Shown here piece after piece: positions 1 to 35,394 of a DNA stretch of 37,694 nucleotides. The notes under the pieces are model-generated. The model was not told where the DNA came from. It searched no databases and worked only from the letters and a program-made list of their open reading frames with translations. Each line of letters begins with the position of its first letter. The first letter of the stretch is position 1. A program made the translations under genes and the position numbers. Source of the stretch: a virus; the IMG/VR virus record IMGVR_UViG_3300029448_000135, positions 1-37,694 of that record; one strand, written 5' to 3'.

Positions 1-2507
1 TTAATATCTTTGACTCTGAAAATGGTGAAGAAGTAGCACACTTCTCAGGTGACCCACAAAATGGACTTACTATTCATTCGCATGCTCATGCTACAGAAGG
101 TGGTATTAGATTTATTATTCATGATACTGCTGATTCCGACTACTTAATTATTTCTCAGCCAACGGGTGTGTCTTTAGTCAATAGAAGAATTAGAAACCTT
201 GCTCGACCTGTAGTCGATAATGATGCTGCTACAAAAGCATACGTAGACCAAACCTCTCAAGGACTTACAGTTAAAGATGCTGTTGAAGCAGCAACTGTTG
301 ATAGTCTTGGCGCAATACCTGGAATTGGCACTATTTCGTATTCGAATGGAACTGCTGGTGTAGGTGCAAACCTTACATTTACTGGTGCCTTAGACTCTAT
401 TGATAACTTTGCTCTTACTCTCAATGACAGAATTCTGATTAAAGACCAACCAAGTAAATTGCAAAATGGTATCTATAGGTATGTTAGTTCTACAGAAATT
501 GAACGTACAACTGATGCAGACTCGAGCACTGAACTTGGTGGTGGTGTATTTGTATTCGTTGAAAACGGCACACAGAATCAGAGTCAAGGGTATGTAACAT
601 CTCACTCTGGAATTACAACTATCGGTACTACTGATATTATCTGGACACACTTCTCGGGTGCTGGATTTATTGAACCCGGGAATGGTTTAGAAAAGGTTGG
701 TAATACTCTCTCTATAGATTTAAAACCTTCCTCTTCAGGTTTACAGTTTGTTGATGGCGATTTAGCGATCAAAGTAGCTGGTGCTCTGAGTGTTGATGCA
801 GGAACAAACAGTGTTGTAATTGCCGATAATGCGATTAATATCAATAAATTAAAGCAAACTGGAGTAACACCATCAACTGATGTGACACTCGGAAACTTAG
901 TTGGATCGAATGGAGAATTTGGTAACACAGACAGTTTACCTGAAGGCACTACTAACCTTTACTTTACCACTGCTCGAGCAAACACTGCAATTGATGGTAG
1001 AGTGACACTTTCGTTTATTAATGCATTTAGTGGTGGTGATTTTGACTCTGACTTAATTCCACCTCTATCTTCCGCAGACATTACATCCGGCACTTTTGCT
1101 GATACTCGTATTGCTGCATCGAACGTTACACAGCACCAAGGTAGTATTACTGGAACAGGAGTATTAAACTCTGGTAGTATTAACACTGGCTTTGGCAACA
1201 TTAATATTGGATCAAGTACCTTTACAGGTAATGGTAGTGGATTGAGTAGTCTTGCTGCATCAGCACTTACAGGAACTATTGACTCTGCTCGCATTCCCGT
1301 ATTAGAAGCACCAGACATTAAGTATGGTGGTGATGCATTTGACTCTGATCTGATTCCACAGTTAAGGCAGCAAGATATTAATGGTCTTGAAGAGGCTCTT
1401 AGCAGTATTGACTCTGACTATATCGAACTGCGCAGACCAGCAGAAACAATCTTTACTGTAGGTAATAGTAATAGTAATTATTACCACTTTACAGGTGATG
1501 GTTTCCCAACACAAGCAAATGACAACCCCGATCTGTTCTTAACTAGAGGTAAGACTTACAGATTTAAGGTTACAAATGGCGGTGCGCATCCACTTGCAAT
1601 TGGAAACGCAGATGCTGATGCTAATAATAATGATGCTTACACATCTGGATGGAATGCAATCGGTCAAATTGGTGGTACTGGTCCTTACATTTATGACTTT
1701 ACTGTCCCAATGGATGCACCTAATAAACTCAGATACTACTGCACGAACCATGCAGCAATGGTCGGTAACATCTATGTTGATGGTAATTATGATGAAGGGT
1801 TCTTCTATGACTCTGCACAGAGAGAAGGTGGTTTAGTAGTTGGCTCTCCAGTCTTCTATAACACAACCACTTCTAAGTGGACAGGTGCTGACTATGACTC
1901 TACTGGTGATAATGTTGCTTCCCATGTTGTAACAGACATTCAAGCAGGTGTAGGTATTAGTGTTGCTTCCTCTGGTATCTTTGATGTAAGTGGACATGGG
2001 TTAAACTTAACTCCACACTCTTACTACTACCTTGCTGGAACTGCTGGTGGAACAGTAACAACTGCTCCTGCTGCTGATAGCGGTATCTTCCAACCTCTCT
2101 ACTACACTCTTGATTCTAATACTCTTGATATTTTTGTCGGTAACCCAGTTGATCAAACAGTAATTACTCTTTCAGACTCTGAGGGTCAAGGTGTGCTTTC
2201 TGATGCTAGATATAAGCAGAACGTGAATACTTTGACTATGGATGCAACCGGAACTATTCAGCAGTTGAATCCTGTAAGCTTTGAGTTTATCTCTCCAGAT
2301 AACAGATCGATGCAAGGCGAACAACTTGGTTTCATTGCACAAGAGATTAGTGAAATTATTCCTCAGTCTGTATGGACTAAGGATAATGAAGAACAAACAA
2401 TGATGCTGAAACCTGAAACAGTAATTCCTGTCTTAGTGAAAGCAGTGCAAGAGTTAAAACAAGAACTTAATGAAGTTAAAGCAAAGTTGGAAGAAATGAA
2501 TGGCTAG
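1..2507 (+). CDS. Tail fibre protein with cupredoxin-like insert and C-terminal S74 chaperone domain (5' partial)
   Basis: The frame is open from the left edge (first full codon at 3), so the N-terminus lies outside the window; the GTG at 168 is probably internal. A DAATKAYVD segment followed by a NDRILIK...NGIYRY module (about nt 220-600) is typical of phage tail fibres. Aspartate/serine-rich repeats with 'DSDLIP' follow. Nt 1440-1785 encode a cupredoxin-like domain with candidate copper ligands His (1587), Cys (1740), His (1749) and Met (1758). The C-terminus (about 2196-2500) starts with SDARYK, has GFIAQE, and ends in a coiled coil; this is the S74 intramolecular chaperone, whose Ser (2199) and Lys (2214) normally drive self-cleavage after trimerisation. 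Likely role: trimeric adhesin recognising the host surface. It overlaps gene 13 by 8 nt. Confidence 0.85.
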   Translation, partial: NIFDSENGEEVAHFSGDPQNGLTIHSHAHATEGGIRFIIHDTADSDYLIISQPTGVSLVNRRIRNLARPVVDNDAATKAYVDQTSQGLTVKDAVEAATVDSLGAIPGIGTISYSNGTAGVGANLTFTGALDSIDNFALTLNDRILIKDQPSKLQNGIYRYVSSTEIERTTDADSSTELGGGVFVFVENGTQNQSQGYVTSHSGITTIGTTDIIWTHFSGAGFIEPGNGLEKVGNTLSIDLKPSSSGLQFVDGDLAIKVAGALSVDAGTNSVVIADNAININKLKQTGVTPSTDVTLGNLVGSNGEFGNTDSLPEGTTNLYFTTARANTAIDGRVTLSFINAFSGGDFDSDLIPPLSSADITSGTFADTRIAASNVTQHQGSITGTGVLNSGSINTGFGNINIGSSTFTGNGSGLSSLAASALTGTIDSARIPVLEAPDIKYGGDAFDSDLIPQLRQQDINGLEEALSSIDSDYIELRRPAETIFTVGNSNSNYYHFTGDGFPTQANDNPDLFLTRGKTYRFKVTNGGAHPLAIGNADADANNNDAYTSGWNAIGQIGGTGPYIYDFTVPMDAPNKLRYYCTNHAAMVGNIYVDGNYDEGFFYDSAQREGGLVVGSPVFYNTTTSKWTGADYDSTGDNVASHVVTDIQAGVGISVASSGIFDVSGHGLNLTPHSYYYLAGTAGGTVTTAPAADSGIFQPLYYTLDSNTLDIFVGNPVDQTVITLSDSEGQGVLSDARYKQNVNTLTMDATGTIQQLNPVSFEFISPDNRSMQGEQLGFIAQEISEIIPQSVWTKDNEEQTMMLKPETVIPVLVKAVQELKQELNEVKAKLEEMNG

Positions 2508-4952: not shown

Positions 4953-7034
4953 ATGGCGAGACTTAATAGTAGATTTCTAAATCAGAAAATAATTATCGGC
5001 AATAAGTCTATTCAAGAGGGGGACTTGACCGATTCTGCACGGGATGCGTTAGGGGCTGATTCTGATTTCGTAAAGACTGTAGAAAACCTTCCAGGTGGTA
5101 ATATTGCAGCCTCTAGTATCAGTCCTTCCTCTATTGCAGATCAAGATCAATTGGTTTCCTCTACGGGAGCATTGACTACTGGCGGGATTTTAACCATCTC
5201 CAGAGATGGAGGAAATAGTTTTATTAACTTTGATGATAGTAGTCAGTTTCAGGCGATAGACTCTAGTTTAGAGGTACTTTCAACTCCTACTGGATTTGAC
5301 TTTATCACAAGAACTCCCATAGGTGCTGCTCCAACTTACCAAGGTCCGATTCCATTAAACGCTTCTTCTAGAATTAGAATTCATTTGAACACTCCTATTC
5401 AAAATCAGCAAGACCTTTTACATTTTTTCAACGTTAATGCTGCGACGGAAACAGATGAGATTCATTCTGTCCAAATCTTAGACTCTGCAACAGAAAATAA
5501 TCATGATTTTGCATTAAAAGATGAAAGTGGAGTCTTGCATTACTTAAACCTTCTAGATAGCATTCCTTTTGGAGACCCTAGATTAACATATGTAGGTGGT
5601 GACAATGAGGTTGATATTATCAGCGGTAGGAGATTATGGGAGGGGATTAAAGGTGCGAAGTTAGCGAACAGTACACCAGAATTTACTCATGATGCAACTA
5701 GCAATATCTCAACTAGGAATGTGGCATCTAGATTAAGATTTAGAACGAGAAAGTCTGTCCCTTCTGGAATTACAGGGGGTGCACCTTCGACATATAAATT
5801 AGATGCACCAGAAGGTCCAATTGGAGAGGGCGTATCAAATCCTGTTTACTCTAAAGTATCAGAAAGATTTGTATATAAAGTTGCTCATGTTTCTCCCGGT
5901 CAAGGATACTTGAACGGATATACTGCTGGTGGTTATTATAATCTTCCGGCTCCAACTAATTTGCCGATACCGGCACCTTCTAATACCGATACAAATCCTG
6001 CGGGTTATAAAAGACAGAAGTTCCCGTTCAGTGGACCAGCGCAATATGCGTACATTACAGGCGGAGATTTAAATTCAAATGCTACTGGTGGAGCTGGACA
6101 TAGTAGTTCTATTAAAGGTTACTCTACTGGAGATGGTATACCTTATCAGGTTGAAAAATTTCCAGCATCTAACTTCTTTGAGTTTGCATTTGCATCTGAG
6201 ACATCTGTAACATTTCATCCAGCGGCTGCCAATGATATATGGGGTAGCAATGCTTCAGCGCAACAATCTGATACTCATGGATATACTGCTGGTGGTAAAT
6301 ATATTAGCCCCGCCCCCGCTTATCCTCAGGCACCTTCTAATACCCTTCGGGATTTTCCGACCCTAACAACTGCTTCTAGTAATGATAGGCGTCAGAAGTT
6401 CCCATTCTATGGTCCAGCGCAATATGCGTACATTACAGGCGGAGATTTATTAGGTGAAAATGCTACTGGTGGAACTGGACATAGCACTTTTACTAAAGGA
6501 TATTCGACCGGAAATACACTAAGGCCTGATATTACAGCCAGATTTTATCCAGGTTATACCTTCGTTGAGTTTCCATTTGCATCTGAGACATCTGTAACAT
6601 TACATCCAAGAGATGCCGTCGATCAATGGGGGGCTGCATCATCCTCTCAACAATCTGATACTCATGGATATACTCTTGGTCACCTTTTTTATGGCCCGAG
6701 TAACTTTGCACCACTGGCACCTTCTAATACTAGCGCCTCCCCCAGCGACCCTGTATATGCAGATGCAAGAAAAAGACAGAAGTTCCCGTTCACTGGAGCA
6801 GCGGTATATGCGTACATTACAGGCGGAGATTTAAGTAATGATGGCATGGGTGGGACTGGACATAGTAGTCACGCTAAAGGTTACTCTACTGGAGACCATG
6901 CTCCTGCTGATCCTAGACCCTACCCAGCAGCTAACTTCTTTGAGTTTCCATTTGCATCTGAGACATCTGTAACATTACATCCAGCGACTGCCAATGATAT
7001 ATGGGGCATTGAAGCATCCCCTCAGTTTCAATAG
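4953..7034 (+). CDS. Repeat-containing tail fibre/adhesin (paralogue A)
   Basis: 693 residues, with RBS AAAAAAGG before ATG. The N-terminal ~270 residues (MARLNSRFLNQKIIIGNKS..., GVLHYLNLLDSIPFGDPRL, GGDNEVDII) are shared with the gene at 8898, so both fibres probably attach to the virion in the same way. The C-terminal half holds three ~126-residue repeats with KFPF, AQYAYITGGD, GHSS.KGYSTG, FASETSVT.HP and DTHGYT, separated by proline-rich linkers (PAPTNLPIPAPSNT; PAPAYPQAPSNT). The repeats suggest a beta-rich receptor-binding region. No enzyme motif is seen. The family is known only as predicted tail proteins in marine T4-like phages; the adhesin role is inferred. Confidence 0.75.
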   Translation: MARLNSRFLNQKIIIGNKSIQEGDLTDSARDALGADSDFVKTVENLPGGNIAASSISPSSIADQDQLVSSTGALTTGGILTISRDGGNSFINFDDSSQFQAIDSSLEVLSTPTGFDFITRTPIGAAPTYQGPIPLNASSRIRIHLNTPIQNQQDLLHFFNVNAATETDEIHSVQILDSATENNHDFALKDESGVLHYLNLLDSIPFGDPRLTYVGGDNEVDIISGRRLWEGIKGAKLANSTPEFTHDATSNISTRNVASRLRFRTRKSVPSGITGGAPSTYKLDAPEGPIGEGVSNPVYSKVSERFVYKVAHVSPGQGYLNGYTAGGYYNLPAPTNLPIPAPSNTDTNPAGYKRQKFPFSGPAQYAYITGGDLNSNATGGAGHSSSIKGYSTGDGIPYQVEKFPASNFFEFAFASETSVTFHPAAANDIWGSNASAQQSDTHGYTAGGKYISPAPAYPQAPSNTLRDFPTLTTASSNDRRQKFPFYGPAQYAYITGGDLLGENATGGTGHSTFTKGYSTGNTLRPDITARFYPGYTFVEFPFASETSVTLHPRDAVDQWGAASSSQQSDTHGYTLGHLFYGPSNFAPLAPSNTSASPSDPVYADARKRQKFPFTGAAVYAYITGGDLSNDGMGGTGHSSHAKGYSTGDHAPADPRPYPAANFFEFPFASETSVTLHPATANDIWGIEASPQFQ
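5920..7031 (+). repeat. Three tandem ~380-bp in-frame repeats in fibre A
   Basis: The shared core TTCCC(G/A)TTC begins at 6021, 6399 and 6783, giving periods of 378 and 384 bp, both multiples of three. Copies 1 and 2 are identical over GCAATATGCGTACATTACAG and beyond, while the proline-coding linkers differ. This points to recent duplication or gene conversion of the cores. Confidence 0.85.
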
Positions 7035-7512: not shown

Positions 7513-7533
7513 CTTTAAAAGGACTATTGATTG

Positions 7534-8850
7534 ATGTATACAAATAATGGTATTAATAATCTTGAAGAACATTACAAAATGACTGCTGATGCATTTGAGC
7601 AAAATGGGTATGTTGTTTTATCAGAAGCTCTTACAAAAGAGCAATGTAAGCAACTCACAGATCATATGTTTGATCTTGATCGGAAAGACAAACTTGTAAA
7701 AGATGACCAATGCCCTTTGTCTGGCGCAGTCTATGGCGATCCTGTTTTTGATGATCTTCTTGTTCAAATGGCAGAAGGTATTGGATTGCAAGTTGGCAAA
7801 AAACTTCTTCCAACATATACTTATGCTCGACTTTATAGACCCGGTGAAGAACTGAAGAGACATAAAGACAGACCTTCTTGTGAAGTTTCTGCTACTCTTA
7901 CTTTAGGATATGATGAAAGCTCTACAGTTTGGCCAATTTTCTTTGATGAACATAAAGAAATTCAAGTCAATCTTGATGTGGGCGAACTTGCTGTCTACAA
8001 AGGTTGTGACGTAGAGCATTGGAGACCTAAGTTTAAAGGTAAGTGGCAGGTTCAAGTGTTCTTGCATTATGTAGATGCCAATGGCCCGTACAAAGATCAT
8101 GCTATGGATGGTCGTAAACAATTTGGCACAGATAAAAGTGGACAAAATTTACGAGAAAATTCTGTTCATCCAGATCATGGGAATAAGAATATTAATTCTG
8201 GTACAATTATTTCACCGCCTACATTTGATGCAGTCTTGTTGCCACAATCTCCAGAAGAACAACACTTTCCGGGGTATATTGGTATGAACCATGAGAACTT
8301 CCCCGATATTGTATTCAGCAAAGAAGAGTGTGCAAAGATTATTTCTTTTGCTGATAATCAATATGGTGGGGCTGCAAGAATTGGTGGTGGACCAGACGAC
8401 AATCTAAAACGTGAAATTAGATCAGCAGATATTTACAATATTTGGCCTGAACCAGAATGGCGTTGGGTTCATGAAAAAGTATGCCGTGCTGTTGCTGTTG
8501 CTAACCATGATCATTTTAAGTATGATGTGAATACTATTTCTCATGGATTACAGTTAATTCATTATCGTGCTGATGAAAAGATTCCGGGTCATTATAATTG
8601 GCATGTAGATGCTGGTCCGGGATATTCTGCTACTCGTAAAATTTCGTTTACTGTTCAGCTGTCAGACTCAAATGATTATAAAGGGTGCGATTTGTTAGTC
8701 GCTGATCATGGCAGAGAACTTACAGCAATTCGTGATCAAGGGTCACTTTCTATGTTCCCAAGTTATATGCCGCACTGTGTTACTCCTATTGAGTCTGGAG
8801 AACGTTGGGCATTGGTTATTTGGGTTCATGGACCAAAACCATTTAGATAA
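7534..8850 (+). CDS. Two-domain 2OG-Fe(II) oxygenase
   Basis: 438 residues from ATG 7534 (RBS AAAAGGA; a TTG one codon upstream is less likely). Two complete 2-oxoglutarate/Fe(II) dioxygenase domains lie in tandem. Domain 1 has H110-x-D112 (RHKDRPS) and distal H162 (VEHWRP). Domain 2 resembles PKHD-type prolyl hydroxylases, with H357-x-D359 (NWHVDAG), distal H414 (MPHCVTP) and R424, ten residues after that His as expected for the 2OG-binding Arg. Both metal triads look intact. The family hydroxylates protein side chains or small molecules using O2 and 2OG. The target is unknown; its position between proline-rich fibre genes makes virion proteins plausible substrates (inference). Confidence 0.88.
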   Translation: MYTNNGINNLEEHYKMTADAFEQNGYVVLSEALTKEQCKQLTDHMFDLDRKDKLVKDDQCPLSGAVYGDPVFDDLLVQMAEGIGLQVGKKLLPTYTYARLYRPGEELKRHKDRPSCEVSATLTLGYDESSTVWPIFFDEHKEIQVNLDVGELAVYKGCDVEHWRPKFKGKWQVQVFLHYVDANGPYKDHAMDGRKQFGTDKSGQNLRENSVHPDHGNKNINSGTIISPPTFDAVLLPQSPEEQHFPGYIGMNHENFPDIVFSKEECAKIISFADNQYGGAARIGGGPDDNLKREIRSADIYNIWPEPEWRWVHEKVCRAVAVANHDHFKYDVNTISHGLQLIHYRADEKIPGHYNWHVDAGPGYSATRKISFTVQLSDSNDYKGCDLLVADHGRELTAIRDQGSLSMFPSYMPHCVTPIESGERWALVIWVHGPKPFR

Positions 8851-8897: not shown

Positions 8898-10748
8898 ATG
8901 GCAAGACGTAATAGTAGATTTGTTAACCAAAAGGTTATCATCGGTAATAAGTCCGTTCAGGCCGGAGACTTAACTGATTCTGCAAAAAACGAATTGATTG
9001 TAGACTCTGATTTTGTGAAGACTGTAGATGGATTAGATGGAAGTAAAATTTCTGATAATAGCATCAGTCCCGCTTCAATTACGAATCAAGGTGATTTGAT
9101 TGCCTCTGCTGGTGGATTGACTACTGGTGGTATGTTGGTTATCACTAGAGATGCTGGAAATAGTTTTATCAACTTTGACAGTAACAATCAATTTGATGGT
9201 ACGGACTCTACTTTAGCAGTGGATTCAACTTCTACTGGATTTGATTTTCTTGTGAGAGATCCAAATAGAGCATTTCCATTTATAACAAGTTCTAGATTAA
9301 CAATTAATCTGAATACACCTTTGCAAAGTTTTCAAGACCTTATAAGTCTATTTAGCATTAATGCTGGAGATGAAGGTGACGAAATTCATTCTGTTCAAAT
9401 CTTAGATTCTGCTACGCAAGGCAGTCATAGCTTTTCATTAAAAGATGAAGGTGGAGTTTTACATTATCTTAATTTGCTTGATAGTATTCCTTATGGAGAC
9501 CCTAGATTAACATATACAGGTGGTGACAATGAAGTCGATATTATCGGTGGTCAAAGGTTATGGCAGGGAATTAAAGGTGCGAAGTTAGCGAATAATGTAT
9601 TAGAATTTGACTCTAATGGTGGTGGTTTAAAAATTAGAAGAATTGGTTCTAGATTGAGGTTTAGAACACGCAAAGCTGTACCCTCTACAGAAACTGGAGG
9701 AGCCCCTTCAACGTATCCACTTAGGGAAGGCGTCTCATCTCCTGCATATACTTTAGTTTCTTCTAGATTTGTATATAAATTTGTCAATGCCTCACAAGCT
9801 CAAGGGTTTACATCTGGTTATGTATCAGGTGGGACTGCGGCGCAGGTGCCAAATGGTATGGTCAATATAATCGAAAAATTCCCTTTTGCTACTGATGCAA
9901 ATGCTACACCTGTAGGTGATTTAAGTGCTGCTCGTAATGAAGTGTCAGGTCAATCTTCTACAGTTTCTGGTTACACAGCAGGTGGTTATCATCTCGGTCC
10001 CGGGTACGGCACTAGACAAAACATAATCGAAAAATTCCCTTTTGCTACTGATGCAAATGCTACAGATGTAGGTAATTTGTCTTACTTTCGAGCCAGTGGC
10101 ACTGGAAACTCTTCTACTGTTTCCGGTTATATATCAGGTGGGTCCGCTCCAAGAAATTTTGCTGCTCCGGGTTATCCGGTCAATTCAGCTGATTTCATAT
10201 ATGTAATAGAAAAATTCCCTTTTGCTACTGATACAAATGCTACACCTGTAGGTAATTTGAACACGACTTCACCGTCGGTGGCCAGAACCGGCCCGATTGC
10301 AGGAAACTCCTCTACTGAATCTGGTTATTATTCGGGCGGCAATACTCACCACAGCGGTATCCAAAAATTCCCTTTTGCTACTGATACAAATGCTACACCT
10401 GTAGGTAATTTGGATACAGATACTTCTGGTACAACCGGCCAATCTTCTGGTGTATCTGGTTATGTAACAGGGGGGGGACCCCCCTTATCGGCGGGTGTAA
10501 TTCAAAAATTCCCTTTTGCTACTGATACAAATGCTGCAGATGTAGGCGATTTGCTTCCCACCGGGCCCGCTGCGACAAATTCTGGGATAGGTCAATCGGG
10601 GGTAAACTTTGGTTATCACTCAGGAGGGGTGTTCGCGAGCGGTGTACAAAATGTAATTCAAAAATTTTCTTTTGCCTCTGATCAAAATGCTACAGATGTA
10701 AGCGATTTGACCAGTGGCCGAAAGCAGGGGGCCGGTCAACAAGTCTAA
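8898..10748 (+). CDS. Kelch-like repeat tail fibre/adhesin (paralogue B)
   Basis: 616 residues, RBS AAAGGA. The N-terminal ~290 residues are homologous to fibre A (MARRNSRFVNQKVIIGNKS, DPRLTYTGGDNEVDI). The C-terminal half has six repeats of the form I(E/Q)KFPFATD.NAT.VG(D/N)L ... GQSS..SGY.(S/A)GG, about 47-60 residues each, consistent with a six-bladed beta-propeller of the kelch type. The protein ends right after the sixth repeat (GRKQGAGQQV). Repeat cores are nearly constant while the linkers vary strongly and are richer in G+C. Likely an exposed, fast-evolving receptor-binding protein; this role is inferred from architecture. Confidence 0.78.
   Translation: MARRNSRFVNQKVIIGNKSVQAGDLTDSAKNELIVDSDFVKTVDGLDGSKISDNSISPASITNQGDLIASAGGLTTGGMLVITRDAGNSFINFDSNNQFDGTDSTLAVDSTSTGFDFLVRDPNRAFPFITSSRLTINLNTPLQSFQDLISLFSINAGDEGDEIHSVQILDSATQGSHSFSLKDEGGVLHYLNLLDSIPYGDPRLTYTGGDNEVDIIGGQRLWQGIKGAKLANNVLEFDSNGGGLKIRRIGSRLRFRTRKAVPSTETGGAPSTYPLREGVSSPAYTLVSSRFVYKFVNASQAQGFTSGYVSGGTAAQVPNGMVNIIEKFPFATDANATPVGDLSAARNEVSGQSSTVSGYTAGGYHLGPGYGTRQNIIEKFPFATDANATDVGNLSYFRASGTGNSSTVSGYISGGSAPRNFAAPGYPVNSADFIYVIEKFPFATDTNATPVGNLNTTSPSVARTGPIAGNSSTESGYYSGGNTHHSGIQKFPFATDTNATPVGNLDTDTSGTTGQSSGVSGYVTGGGPPLSAGVIQKFPFATDTNAADVGDLLPTGPAATNSGIGQSGVNFGYHSGGVFASGVQNVIQKFSFASDQNATDVSDLTSGRKQGAGQQV
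9873..10745 (+). repeat. Six in-frame kelch-like repeats in fibre B
   Basis: The block (G/C)AAAAATTCCCTTTTGCTAC recurs at 9873, 10029, 10209, 10362 and 10503, and in diverged form at 10659. Spacings are 156, 180, 153, 141 and 156 bp, all multiples of three. The block is AT-rich and almost invariant; the DNA between copies differs in length and sequence. Confidence 0.88.
10470..10484 (+). repeat. G8-A-C6 homopolymer tract inside fibre B
   Basis: Eight G (10470-10477), one A and six C (10479-10484) lie in a linker between propeller repeats, encoding GGGPP. Such a tract is rare in AT-rich DNA and is a plausible slippage site. Confidence 0.8.
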
Positions 10749-10815
10749 AATAAATACGAATATAATTATATTGAAATTGATTTAATTTTAGATCATGATT
10801 TAAGGAGATTCAGTT

Positions 10816-27998: not shown

Positions 27999-28072
27999 GC
28001 GGATATAGTATAATGGCATTATTACAGCCTTCCAAGCTGAAGATGCGAGTTCGATTCTCGCTATCCGCTCCA
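27999..28072 (+). tRNA. tRNA-Gly (anticodon TCC), CCA encoded
   Basis: 74 nt including CCA. Acceptor GCGGATA pairs with TATCCGC (28062-28068); anticodon loop CTTCCAA; T arm GCGAG-TTCGATT-CTCGC. Very close in plan to E. coli glyT. One A-A mismatch closes the bottom of the anticodon stem, and the D stem is short, as in glyT. Decodes GGA/GGG glycine codons, useful for an AT-rich phage with glycine-rich fibres. It lies 6 nt after a gene and 33 nt before pstS. Confidence 0.95.
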
Positions 28073-28105
28073 TCATTATCGAGAAACCAAAATAAAGGAA
28101 GAACC

Positions 28106-29089
28106 ATGAAAAACGTTCTTATTTCCATTTTTACAGCAACTGCTGTATCTACCTCTGCATTTGCAGACCGTGCTGACACCATCAACATTGTTGGCTCCTC
28201 TACCGTTTACCCATTTGCTTCTGCTGTTGCAGAATCTTTTGGACAAACCTCCGACTTCAACACTCCTATTATTGAATCTACTGGTTCCGGTGGCGGCATG
28301 AAGCTGTTCTGTGCTGGTATTGGTCTTGAACATCCAGACGTAACTAACGCTTCCCGTGCTATGAAATCTTCTGAGGCAGAAAAGTGTGCTGCTAACGAAG
28401 TAGAATTTGTTGAATTTATGGTTGGTTATGATGGTATCGTAATCGCTAACTCTCTCCGTGGTGGTCCTGCTCTGAACATGACTCGTGAGCATGTTGCACT
28501 GGCAGTATCCGCACAAGTTCCAGATGCTAACGGTAATCTGATGGATAATCCATACGAAAAGTGGTCTGATATTGACCGTTCTCTGCCAAACCGTCCAATT
28601 CTTGTACTTGGTCCACCAACTTCTTCTGGCACACGTGACGCCTTTGAAGAGCTGGTAATCCATAAAGCATACAAGGCTATGGGTTTTGACAAAAAGACTT
28701 ACAAGGCAATTGAAATCCGTGAAGACGGTGCATATGTTGAATCCGGCGAAAATGACTCGTTGATTGTTGATCAGCTTACTTCTGATGGTAACGCTGTAGG
28801 TATCTTTGGTTTCTCCTTCCTGCAAAACAACGCTGACCGTGTAAAAGGTGCAGTGATTGATGGTGTTGCTCCAACATTTGAAAACATTGCCTCTGGTGAC
28901 TACCCTGTATCTCGTTCCCTGTTCTTCTACGTTAAGACCAATCATATTGGTGTAGTTCCAGGTATCGTTGAATACGCAGAGGAGTTTGTAGATCAAGCTG
29001 ATCAGGATGGTCCACTTGCAGACATCGGCCTGATCCCTGGTGGTGACGCTGATCAAGATGCAATGCAAGACGCACTGAACTCTCTTTAA
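28106..29089 (+). CDS. pstS: Periplasmic phosphate-binding protein PstS (auxiliary metabolic gene)
   Basis: 327 residues from ATG 28106 (RBS AAAGGAAG); a frame extension upstream runs through the tRNA and is rejected. Signal peptide MKNVLISIFTATAVSTSAFA, cleaved before DRAD. Phosphate-binding loops GSSTVYPF, ESTGSGGGMK, NASRAMK, GYDGIVIA and SGTRDAF match PstS. It captures phosphate in the periplasm and hands it to the host PstCAB importer, sustaining nucleotide supply during infection. The type looks alphaproteobacterial. G+C is high (31/60 at 28441-28500 against 16/60 in gene 46 at 29821-29880), though expression-related codon bias could contribute. No Pho box is seen. A terminator follows. 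Confidence 0.95.
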   Translation: MKNVLISIFTATAVSTSAFADRADTINIVGSSTVYPFASAVAESFGQTSDFNTPIIESTGSGGGMKLFCAGIGLEHPDVTNASRAMKSSEAEKCAANEVEFVEFMVGYDGIVIANSLRGGPALNMTREHVALAVSAQVPDANGNLMDNPYEKWSDIDRSLPNRPILVLGPPTSSGTRDAFEELVIHKAYKAMGFDKKTYKAIEIREDGAYVESGENDSLIVDQLTSDGNAVGIFGFSFLQNNADRVKGAVIDGVAPTFENIASGDYPVSRSLFFYVKTNHIGVVPGIVEYAEEFVDQADQDGPLADIGLIPGGDADQDAMQDALNSL

Positions 29090-32454: not shown

Positions 32455-33390
32455 ATGACTGATTTTCTTTGGGTCGAAAAATACCGACCACAAACTATTG
32501 ACTCCTGCATTCTACCACAGTCACTGAAAGATACATTTAATCAGATTGTAGAGACAGGTGAAATCCCTAACATGTTATTTACTGGCACTGCTGGTCTTGG
32601 TAAGACTACAGTAGCAAAAGCATTGTGCAATGAACTGGACCTTGATTGGATTTTGATTAACGGTTCTGAAGAGGGTAATATTGACACACTGCGGAATAAA
32701 ATCAAACAGTTTGCATCTACCGTGTCACTGCAAGGTGGTTATAAGGTAGTAATTCTAGATGAGGCGGACTACCTCAATGCACAGTCTTTTCAACCTGCTC
32801 TTCGTGGATTCATCGAAGAGTTTGCAAATAACTGCCGATTTATTCTGACCTGTAACTTCAAGAACCGTATTATTGAACCTTTGCACTCACGGTGTGGTGT
32901 ATATGAATTTAATACAAATAAGAAGTCTATGGCTGAACTTTCTGCTCAGTTCATGAAACGTCTTACTTGGATTTTGAATCAGGAGAATATTACCTATGAT
33001 AAAAAAGTTTTGGCAGAACTTATTATTCGTTTTGCTCCTGATTGGAGGCGTGTTATTAATGAGTGTCAGCGTTACTCTCTTAGTGGCACTATCGACACTG
33101 GGATTCTTAGTCTTCTTTCCAATAATTCTGTTAATGATCTTATTGAATACCTTAAAGTAAAAGACTTCAAAAAGATGAGAAGCTGGGTAAGTAACAATAT
33201 AGATACAGACACTTCTGGTATTTTTAGAAGCATTTACGACTCTATGACAGAAACTATGCAATCGGGCAGCATTCCTCGTGCCGTGCTTATCCTTGCTGAT
33301 TATCAGTATAAGAATGCATTTGTGGCGGACCATGAATTGAATGTTGTTGCTTGTTTAACAGAACTTATGGCGGAGGTAGAATGGAAATGA
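32455..33390 (+). CDS. 44: Clamp loader large subunit gp44
   Basis: 311 residues from ATG 32455 (T4 gp44: 319); a TTG one codon upstream is not needed. An AAA+ ATPase: EKYRPQTIDSCILP start, Walker A GTAGLGKTT, Walker B VILDEADYL, and an arginine finger motif HSRCGVYEF. Four gp44 and one gp62 open the gp45 ring and place it on primed DNA. Its stop overlaps the glutaredoxin ATG, which separates it from gene 62, its usual neighbour. Confidence 0.96.
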   Translation: MTDFLWVEKYRPQTIDSCILPQSLKDTFNQIVETGEIPNMLFTGTAGLGKTTVAKALCNELDLDWILINGSEEGNIDTLRNKIKQFASTVSLQGGYKVVILDEADYLNAQSFQPALRGFIEEFANNCRFILTCNFKNRIIEPLHSRCGVYEFNTNKKSMAELSAQFMKRLTWILNQENITYDKKVLAELIIRFAPDWRRVINECQRYSLSGTIDTGILSLLSNNSVNDLIEYLKVKDFKKMRSWVSNNIDTDTSGIFRSIYDSMTETMQSGSIPRAVLILADYQYKNAFVADHELNVVACLTELMAEVEWK

Positions 33391-33653
33391 AACATGAACT
33401 GACACTATACACTCAACCCAACTGCATGTATTGCGATATGATGAAGACGAAACTTGATCGTTGGGGATATAGATACGATATTGTAAATATTAGACTGGAT
33501 GAAAAGGCCAAAGCATATATTAAAGCTGAAGGTCATAAAACCGTCCCACAACTTTACTATGGTGAAACTCATATTAATCCTAATATCAACACTGAGCAGT
33601 ATACTCTAAATCTTTTAGAAGAGTATATTGGTTATTTGGATTCTGTGGCATGA
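33387..33653 (+). CDS. Glutaredoxin
   Basis: 88 residues from ATG 33387, which overlaps the gene 44 stop by ATGA and has RBS GGAGGT nine nt upstream (ATG 33381 is too close to it). Thioredoxin fold with active site PNCMYC (CxxC), cis-proline motif KTVPQLYY and a C-terminal helix NTEQYTLNLLEEYIG. Probably supplies electrons to ribonucleotide reductase, as phage glutaredoxins do; that enzyme is not in the window. It sits inside the clamp-loader operon and overlaps the next gene by ATGA. Confidence 0.9.
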   Translation: MKHELTLYTQPNCMYCDMMKTKLDRWGYRYDIVNIRLDEKAKAYIKAEGHKTVPQLYYGETHINPNINTEQYTLNLLEEYIGYLDSVA

Positions 33654-34932: not shown

Positions 34933-35394
34933 ATGACTGGAAAAAATACTAGATACCCACGCAATGGGTTTATCGGTTTCGATCACATCTTTGCTGATTT
35001 AGAACGTATTCATAATCAAGCAAAGGATACCTATCCCCCACACAACGTTGTTAAGGTTGATGACCTTAAATTCACAGTAGAGATTGCTGTTGCCGGATTT
35101 GGTCAGGATCACATTGACATTGAAGTCAAAGATCATGTGCTGACTATCACTGGTAATCGTCCACAGCGTCGTGAACAAGATATGTATGTGCATAAAGGTA
35201 TTAGTGCTCGAAAGTTTAAAAAGTCATTCAGACTGTCTGAATATACAGAAGTAATCGGAGCAGATCTTTTGGACGGAATCTTGACTGTTGATCTTGAAGT
35301 CGTCCTGCCAAAAGAGAAGCAGCCTCGTAAAATTTCAATTGGAAAAAACGAGGAAAATAGTAATGCTGAATTTCTTACGGAAGGTGGGCAGTAA
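34933..35394 (+). CDS. Small heat-shock protein Hsp20
   Basis: 153 residues with strong RBS TAGGAGG. An N-terminal aromatic region (GFIGFDHIFADLERIHNQAK) precedes the alpha-crystallin domain: FTVEIAVAGFGQDHIDIEVK, LTITGNRP, and the conserved A-x-L-x-x-G-I-L at ADLLDGILTVDLE. Hsp20 proteins bind unfolding proteins without ATP and are common in marine T4-like phages; a role in virion protein folding has been suggested. It may be made both early and late, judging from its promoter. Confidence 0.95.
   Translation: MTGKNTRYPRNGFIGFDHIFADLERIHNQAKDTYPPHNVVKVDDLKFTVEIAVAGFGQDHIDIEVKDHVLTITGNRPQRREQDMYVHKGISARKFKKSFRLSEYTEVIGADLLDGILTVDLEVVLPKEKQPRKISIGKNEENSNAEFLTEGGQ

Follow-up and report, generated by a model that had tools for sequence, protein, structure and literature searches.

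A predicted cupredoxin domain with a complete set of type 1 copper ligand residues in the tail fibre of a T4-like marine phage

The cupredoxin superfamily is old, and phage-borne members of it are already known, as cyanophage PetE (plastocyanin) has been described as an auxiliary metabolic gene (PMC3037559). In amicyanin of Paracoccus the copper ligands are His53, Cys92, His95, and Met98 (PMC12723479). Ephrins, which are thought to be cupredoxins without copper binding, and coagulation factors V and VIII use the same fold for protein binding and have lost the copper (PMC6485061). A search of the open-access literature, which leaves out most subscription journals and all preprints, found no description of a cupredoxin- or plastocyanin-like domain in phage structural proteins, which is weak evidence of absence.

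The domain described here, which lies within a tail-fibre open reading frame, shares with amicyanin the order of the ligands and the C-x2-H-x2-M spacing, and amicyanin was the top PDB match of the phage profile. On the other hand, amicyanin is a free protein of the periplasm that carries electrons for methylamine dehydrogenase, and an Asn follows its first His, while the phage domain belongs to a virion protein without a signal peptide and carries a Pro at that place. The best structural matches, which were the N-terminal domain of the three-domain nitrite reductase of Hyphomicrobium denitrificans (2dv6, 6tfd), AcoP, and rusticyanin, differ in being exported redox proteins with no known tie to viruses. 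The type 1 domain of multicopper oxidases such as CueO and CotA is similar around the first His, where the H-P-F-x-I motif of the phage domains was aligned with HPFHIH of CueO; however, the phage domain is single, and it lacks the trinuclear site and the His pairs of the oxidases. Cyanophage PetE is likewise a phage-borne cupredoxin, but it is a stand-alone photosynthesis protein serving the infected host rather than a virion domain, and the explanation by an auxiliary plastocyanin gene was rejected because the domain sits inside a structural reading frame. The cyanophage gp9-like "baseplate wedge tail fiber connector" (PHROG 677) contains the same domain and ligands in its C-terminal part (4.6e-26), and in the annotations examined it is described as a baseplate/fibre connector only, with no copper role. 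The ephrins and factors V and VIII offer a parallel to one ligand-lost phage clade described below, while the domain studied here retains all ligands. Finally, the iron-binding fibres of T4 gp37 type differ in their repeated HxH motifs, and no HxH motif is present within positions 1425-1799.

The tail-fibre gene and its surroundings

The window, which is the whole 37,694-base stretch of DNA that was analysed, comes from a T4-like marine phage according to its virus record. It contains a T4-type terminase, a gp44-like clamp loader, and neck and sheath-stabiliser genes, and its major capsid protein shares 65% identity with the one of phage C48C1. The reading frame at its start had been called a tail fibre in an earlier note made from the sequence, and this label is supported by the C-terminal Peptidase_S74 domain, by PHROG tail-fibre matches, and by the adjoining neck and sheath-stabiliser genes (Table 1). 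Two complete relatives of the fibre have 1030 and 1050 codons (loci L003 and L006), and both start with GTG-AEKDFVVKNNL, with no signal peptide, unlike cellular cupredoxins. The GC content of the cupredoxin-like region is 40.5%, as compared to 39.9% and 40.3% on its flanks, and hence a recent insertion of foreign DNA was rejected. A second copy of the domain was sought in the window and was not found.

Table 1. Positions of the tail-fibre reading frame, its domains, and the putative copper ligands in the window
Feature	Position	Strand	Remarks
Tail-fibre ORF	3..2507	+	834 aa; 5' end beyond window edge
Predicted cupredoxin-fold domain (modelled construct)	1425..1799	+	AF2 model, PDB matches, profile search
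Putative His ligand 1, H529, motif G-A-H-P-L (GAHPLAIG)	1587..1589	+	just ahead of strand 1593-1604
Putative Cys ligand, C580	1740..1742	+	ends penultimate strand; the only Cys of the fibre
Putative His ligand 2, H583	1749..1751	+	loop preceding last strand
Presumed axial Met ligand, M586	1758..1760	+	in CTNHAAM, followed by VGNI
Peptidase_S74 (chaperone of endosialidase) domain, fibre C-terminus	2199..2372	+	E 4.9e-12

Several other features of the window were observed. The same fibre contains an HxHxH sequence (HSHAH) at 75-89, which is also present in the two complete relatives (HAHAH and HSHAH, respectively); it resembles the iron-binding HxH of T4 gp37, but it is a single short run. The reading frames 4953-7034 and 8898-10750 are large, structural-looking, free of Cys, and without Pfam matches, and they contain internal repeats in three copies of about 125 nt with a spacing near 380, and in six copies of about 90 nt with a spacing of 141-180 (IEKFPFATDANATPVGNL). 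A 2OG-Fe(II) oxygenase gene (7531-8850, 8e-12) is located amid the structural genes, while further genes encode a phosphate-binding-protein-like product (28013-29089, PBP_like_2, 2.7e-42), a Glutaredoxin (33351-33653, 1.1e-14), and an Hsp20 protein (34933-35394, 1.4e-19). PstS genes like that at 28013-29089 are of the kind carried by marine phages.

Predicted fold and arrangement of the ligand residues

The structure of the domain was predicted with AF2 using a domain alignment of 57 sequences, composed of the window and loci from public collections. The model was an all-beta, Greek-key-like sandwich (pLDDT 83.7, pTM 0.79) with strands at construct residues 8-15, 19-24, 27-31, 37-39, 44-49, 57-60, 76-81, 88-93, 101-106, and 113-118, and the Cys/His/Met loop fell in blocks with pLDDT values of 93 and 90. 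A Greek-key beta sandwich with some eight strands is typical of the cupredoxin superfamily, and the model agrees with it. The predicted strands correspond to window positions 1446-1778, which fits the span of 1440-1785 proposed for the domain in the earlier note, and the residues and coordinates given there for the four ligands were exact. In the model, H55 (construct numbering) is placed just ahead of the strand 57-60, C106 ends the strand 101-106, while H109 and M112 are located in the loop preceding the last strand. The ligands of cupredoxins occupy the same places relative to the strands, and in type 1 copper proteins the first His comes ahead of strand 4, with the other three around the loop that leads to the last strand. 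Hence, the predicted topology, together with the alignments, speaks against an arrangement in which these residues would be far apart.

The comparison of the model with known structures pointed to the same superfamily. The best match to the PDB in the Foldseek search was AcoP (E 9.8e-6), with rusticyanin, auracyanin, amicyanin, plastocyanin, and multicopper oxidases also found, while the top match in VIA-align was 2dv6, the N-terminal cupredoxin domain of the Hyphomicrobium nitrite reductase (Z 9.6, 101 residues, rmsd 3.4, 25% identity). The leading PDB matches of both searches all belonged to the cupredoxin superfamily, including multicopper oxidases, nitrite reductases, and factors V/VIII, so that the cupredoxin fold claimed for this region is supported by both the prediction and the structural search. 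The best matches in a library of viral structures were cyanophage tail proteins.

The relation to copper proteins was also detected by sequence profiles. The Pfam Copper-bind family (PF00127) matched the domain alone with 17.7 bits at 1536-1778, and the whole fibre with 13.4 bits; because the gathering cut-off of this family is 21.2 bits, the domain is not filed under it. When a profile of 21 phage domains was compared with the whole PDB, amicyanin was the first match (8.6e-6), followed by nitrite reductase, plastocyanin, rusticyanin, and others, and nearly all of the 65 matches were cupredoxins. Degenerate-pattern searches were based on closer sub-alignments, as the main alignment was too diverse for this purpose. 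In hhalign against 16 halocyanin/plastocyanin-like sequences from cellular genomes the probability was 93.9% (1.6e-7), with His, Cys, His, and Met in register, while with a broader phage-plus-cell profile it was lower (63.7%, 6.7e-5). Single-sequence phmmer gave no matches in the PDB, and the match to the NCBIfam plastocyanin family was insignificant. Matches to WD40_RLD, DUF4978, CBM_4_9, and Ig-like families were set aside as weak or isolated.

The positions of individual ligands could be followed in these alignments. The first His was aligned in the profile-profile comparison with the His of the HNV motif of blue-copper proteins; in the HMM alignment to amicyanin Pro was placed on Pro, with the first His off by two, while in other alignments His was placed on His. 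The proposal that an upstream His completes a His/Cys/His/Met set (HCHM) thus agrees with the profile-profile data, in which all four residues are in register with those of blue-copper proteins, and the amicyanin-type C-x2-H-x2-M spacing is present as CTNHAAM. No other C-x2-H-x2-M sequence occurs in the open frames of 60 aa or more of the window, and a chance origin of CTNHAAM was rejected, as only 0.00014 such motifs are expected from the composition of the fibre.

Distribution of the domain and conservation of the ligands

The occurrence of related domains in tail proteins of other marine phages, which had been suggested in the earlier note, was borne out by 326 phage records, all of them from marine cyanophages or marine viruses. 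Among viral contigs, at least 544 and at least 585 relatives were confirmed in two pattern searches. In the cyanomyovirus loci examined the domain mostly forms the C-terminus of a gp9-like baseplate/fibre connector, and several of these loci contain weaker copies of the domain in the gene next to it. In the podoviruses P-GSP1 and P-SCSP2 the domain belongs to a larger protein and lies close to its N-terminus, P-SSM2 has two copies within one fibre-like protein, and in the window fibre it is placed upstream of the chaperone domain. Because its position is so varied, the domain appears to be a module of general use and not one dedicated to receptor tips, and the earlier idea of an adhesin tip does not agree with a placement ahead of the chaperone domain, near the N-terminus, or at the end of a connector.

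Cellular relatives were found in marine Flavobacteriia, in marine group II and halophilic archaea, and in others. Many of them, including proteins of flavobacteria and archaea that are among the closest, carry lipobox-like N-termini and are therefore probably exported lipoproteins. Lipoprotein-like cupredoxins of flavobacteria and archaea make up loci L167-L198, in some of which the domain follows a CHRD-like HPGHIH stretch, and some loci counted as cellular, such as L184 and L173, are probably prophages or phage contigs. A gene of Synechococcus phage S-SCSM2R annotated as PetE (PQ898602.1, 773-1279; locus L021) was grouped in the tree with the gp9-type domains, and hence its plastocyanin label may be wrong.

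The ligand residues are strongly conserved. Since two pattern searches used the sequence YYQC, their counts of Cys conservation are biased, and the unbiased count comes from ligand-free patterns, by which HCHM was found in 57 of 57 distinct domains. In four sets outside the S-B43 clade it was present in 97/98, 63/64, 17/18, and 30/31 rows, and two of the exceptions were truncated rows. The rows without HCHM outside the S-B43 search were L035 (truncated), L299 (partial), L016, which is S-B43 itself, and L196, a verrucomicrobial sequence that is truly different. Among 197 ligand-bearing phage reading frames of at least 350 aa, the ligand Cys accounted for 201 of the 204 Cys residues inside the domain, and 107 had no other Cys at all; outside the domain Cys was rare (2.75 per 1000).

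The exception is a clade consisting of the long fibres of S-B43, S-B05, RN05-S, RB11-B, and viral contigs. In the S-B43 search, 24 of 25 distinct sequences had Phe, Ala or Ser, and Val, Thr or Ile in place of His, Cys, and His, respectively, with the Met kept, while the remaining one (L248) had full HCHM and formed a sister branch to the ligand-lost clade. This clade was supported with values of 100/99 and adjoined the ligand-bearing Bellamy in the tree, and no intermediates between the two states were seen in the sampled sequences. The model of an S-B43-like domain kept the cupredoxin fold (pLDDT 88.3, VIA Z 11.0 to 2dv6), which means that a fibre can make use of this fold without a metal. 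The loss of His, Cys, and His together, on one branch and with no intermediates, shows that the three ligands behave as a unit, and as a single event it counts as one data point. Thus, relatives that lose the ligands and keep the fold, which the earlier note regarded as evidence against a copper site, exist in this one clade only, while the other phage lineages sampled keep HCHM. The loss does not refute the site in the window protein.

These data bear on the view that the domain is a metal-free scaffold, that is, a module for protein or glycan binding or for spacing, in which the ligand residues are retained as components of the fold. The S-B43 clade, the very varied placement in tail proteins, and the precedent of ephrins are consistent with it, and the strong conservation of the ligands might in principle be due to folding and not to metal. 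We nevertheless consider this view unlikely, because HCHM is kept in every other sampled phage lineage at identities down to 25-45%, a free surface thiol and two His residues serve no obvious purpose in folding, and in the clade where one of the ligands was lost all three are gone.

Possible role of the site

The explanation to which we lean, albeit with limited assurance, is that the domain is a captured cupredoxin with an intact type 1 ligand set, which serves as a building or adhesion module of the tail and takes up copper outside the cell. The module would have been captured from an exported cellular lineage into tail proteins of marine phages. Free copper is kept extremely low in the bacterial cytoplasm. 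As the fibre is presumably made there, the site would at that stage hold no metal and be in the reduced state, and given the lack of a signal peptide and the scarcity of cytoplasmic copper, Cu(I) or Cu(II) would be picked up after lysis, either in seawater or at the host surface. The bound metal would stiffen and protect the domain, and it might also make docking stronger or act as a switch for it. A role in redox chemistry is speculative; because we know of no redox partner, electron transfer is not claimed.

It is also conceivable, although rather improbable in our judgement, that the site is real and serves another metal, such as zinc or iron, or acts through its thiol in an inter-subunit disulphide or in a reaction with the host surface. 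Fibre assembly is cytoplasmic, where zinc is easier to obtain than copper, the fibre has its own HxHxH run, and T4 gp37 holds iron via HxH, an idea that was extended to marine phages (PMC11705849); however, the spacing and order of the ligands match type 1 copper sites exactly, the HMM alignment is to copper proteins, and a disulphide does not need two His residues and a Met lost or kept together with the Cys. An active use of copper, by a redox-active adhesin or as a copper "Trojan horse" offered to a host copper-uptake receptor, would accord with the presence of all type 1 ligands in an adhesin, with the analogous iron hypothesis for phage tails (PMC11705849), and with the wide spread among marine phages, as trace metals are scarce where their hosts live. 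It is nevertheless very doubtful: neither a redox partner nor a receptor is known, the domain is found in baseplate connectors and close to the N-termini of fibres as well, rather than consistently at a tip, and one clade infects without the ligands.

If the captured cupredoxin does bind a metal, the cuproproteins would include a class that has so far gone unrecognised, namely the tail fibres and baseplates of abundant ocean phages. This would matter for the stability of the virions, for their docking on the host, and for the speciation of copper in seawater, and it would parallel the iron "Trojan horse" idea. In its boldest form, which we regard as unlikely, a large share of marine tailed-phage virions would be copper proteins, each with several type 1 sites in fibres and baseplate that are loaded outside the cell, with the copper aiding docking or stability. 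The S-B43-like clade, in which the three strong ligands were lost together, provides a natural control, and the C-terminus of the cyanophage gp9-like connector gains a predicted fold and a testable putative site.
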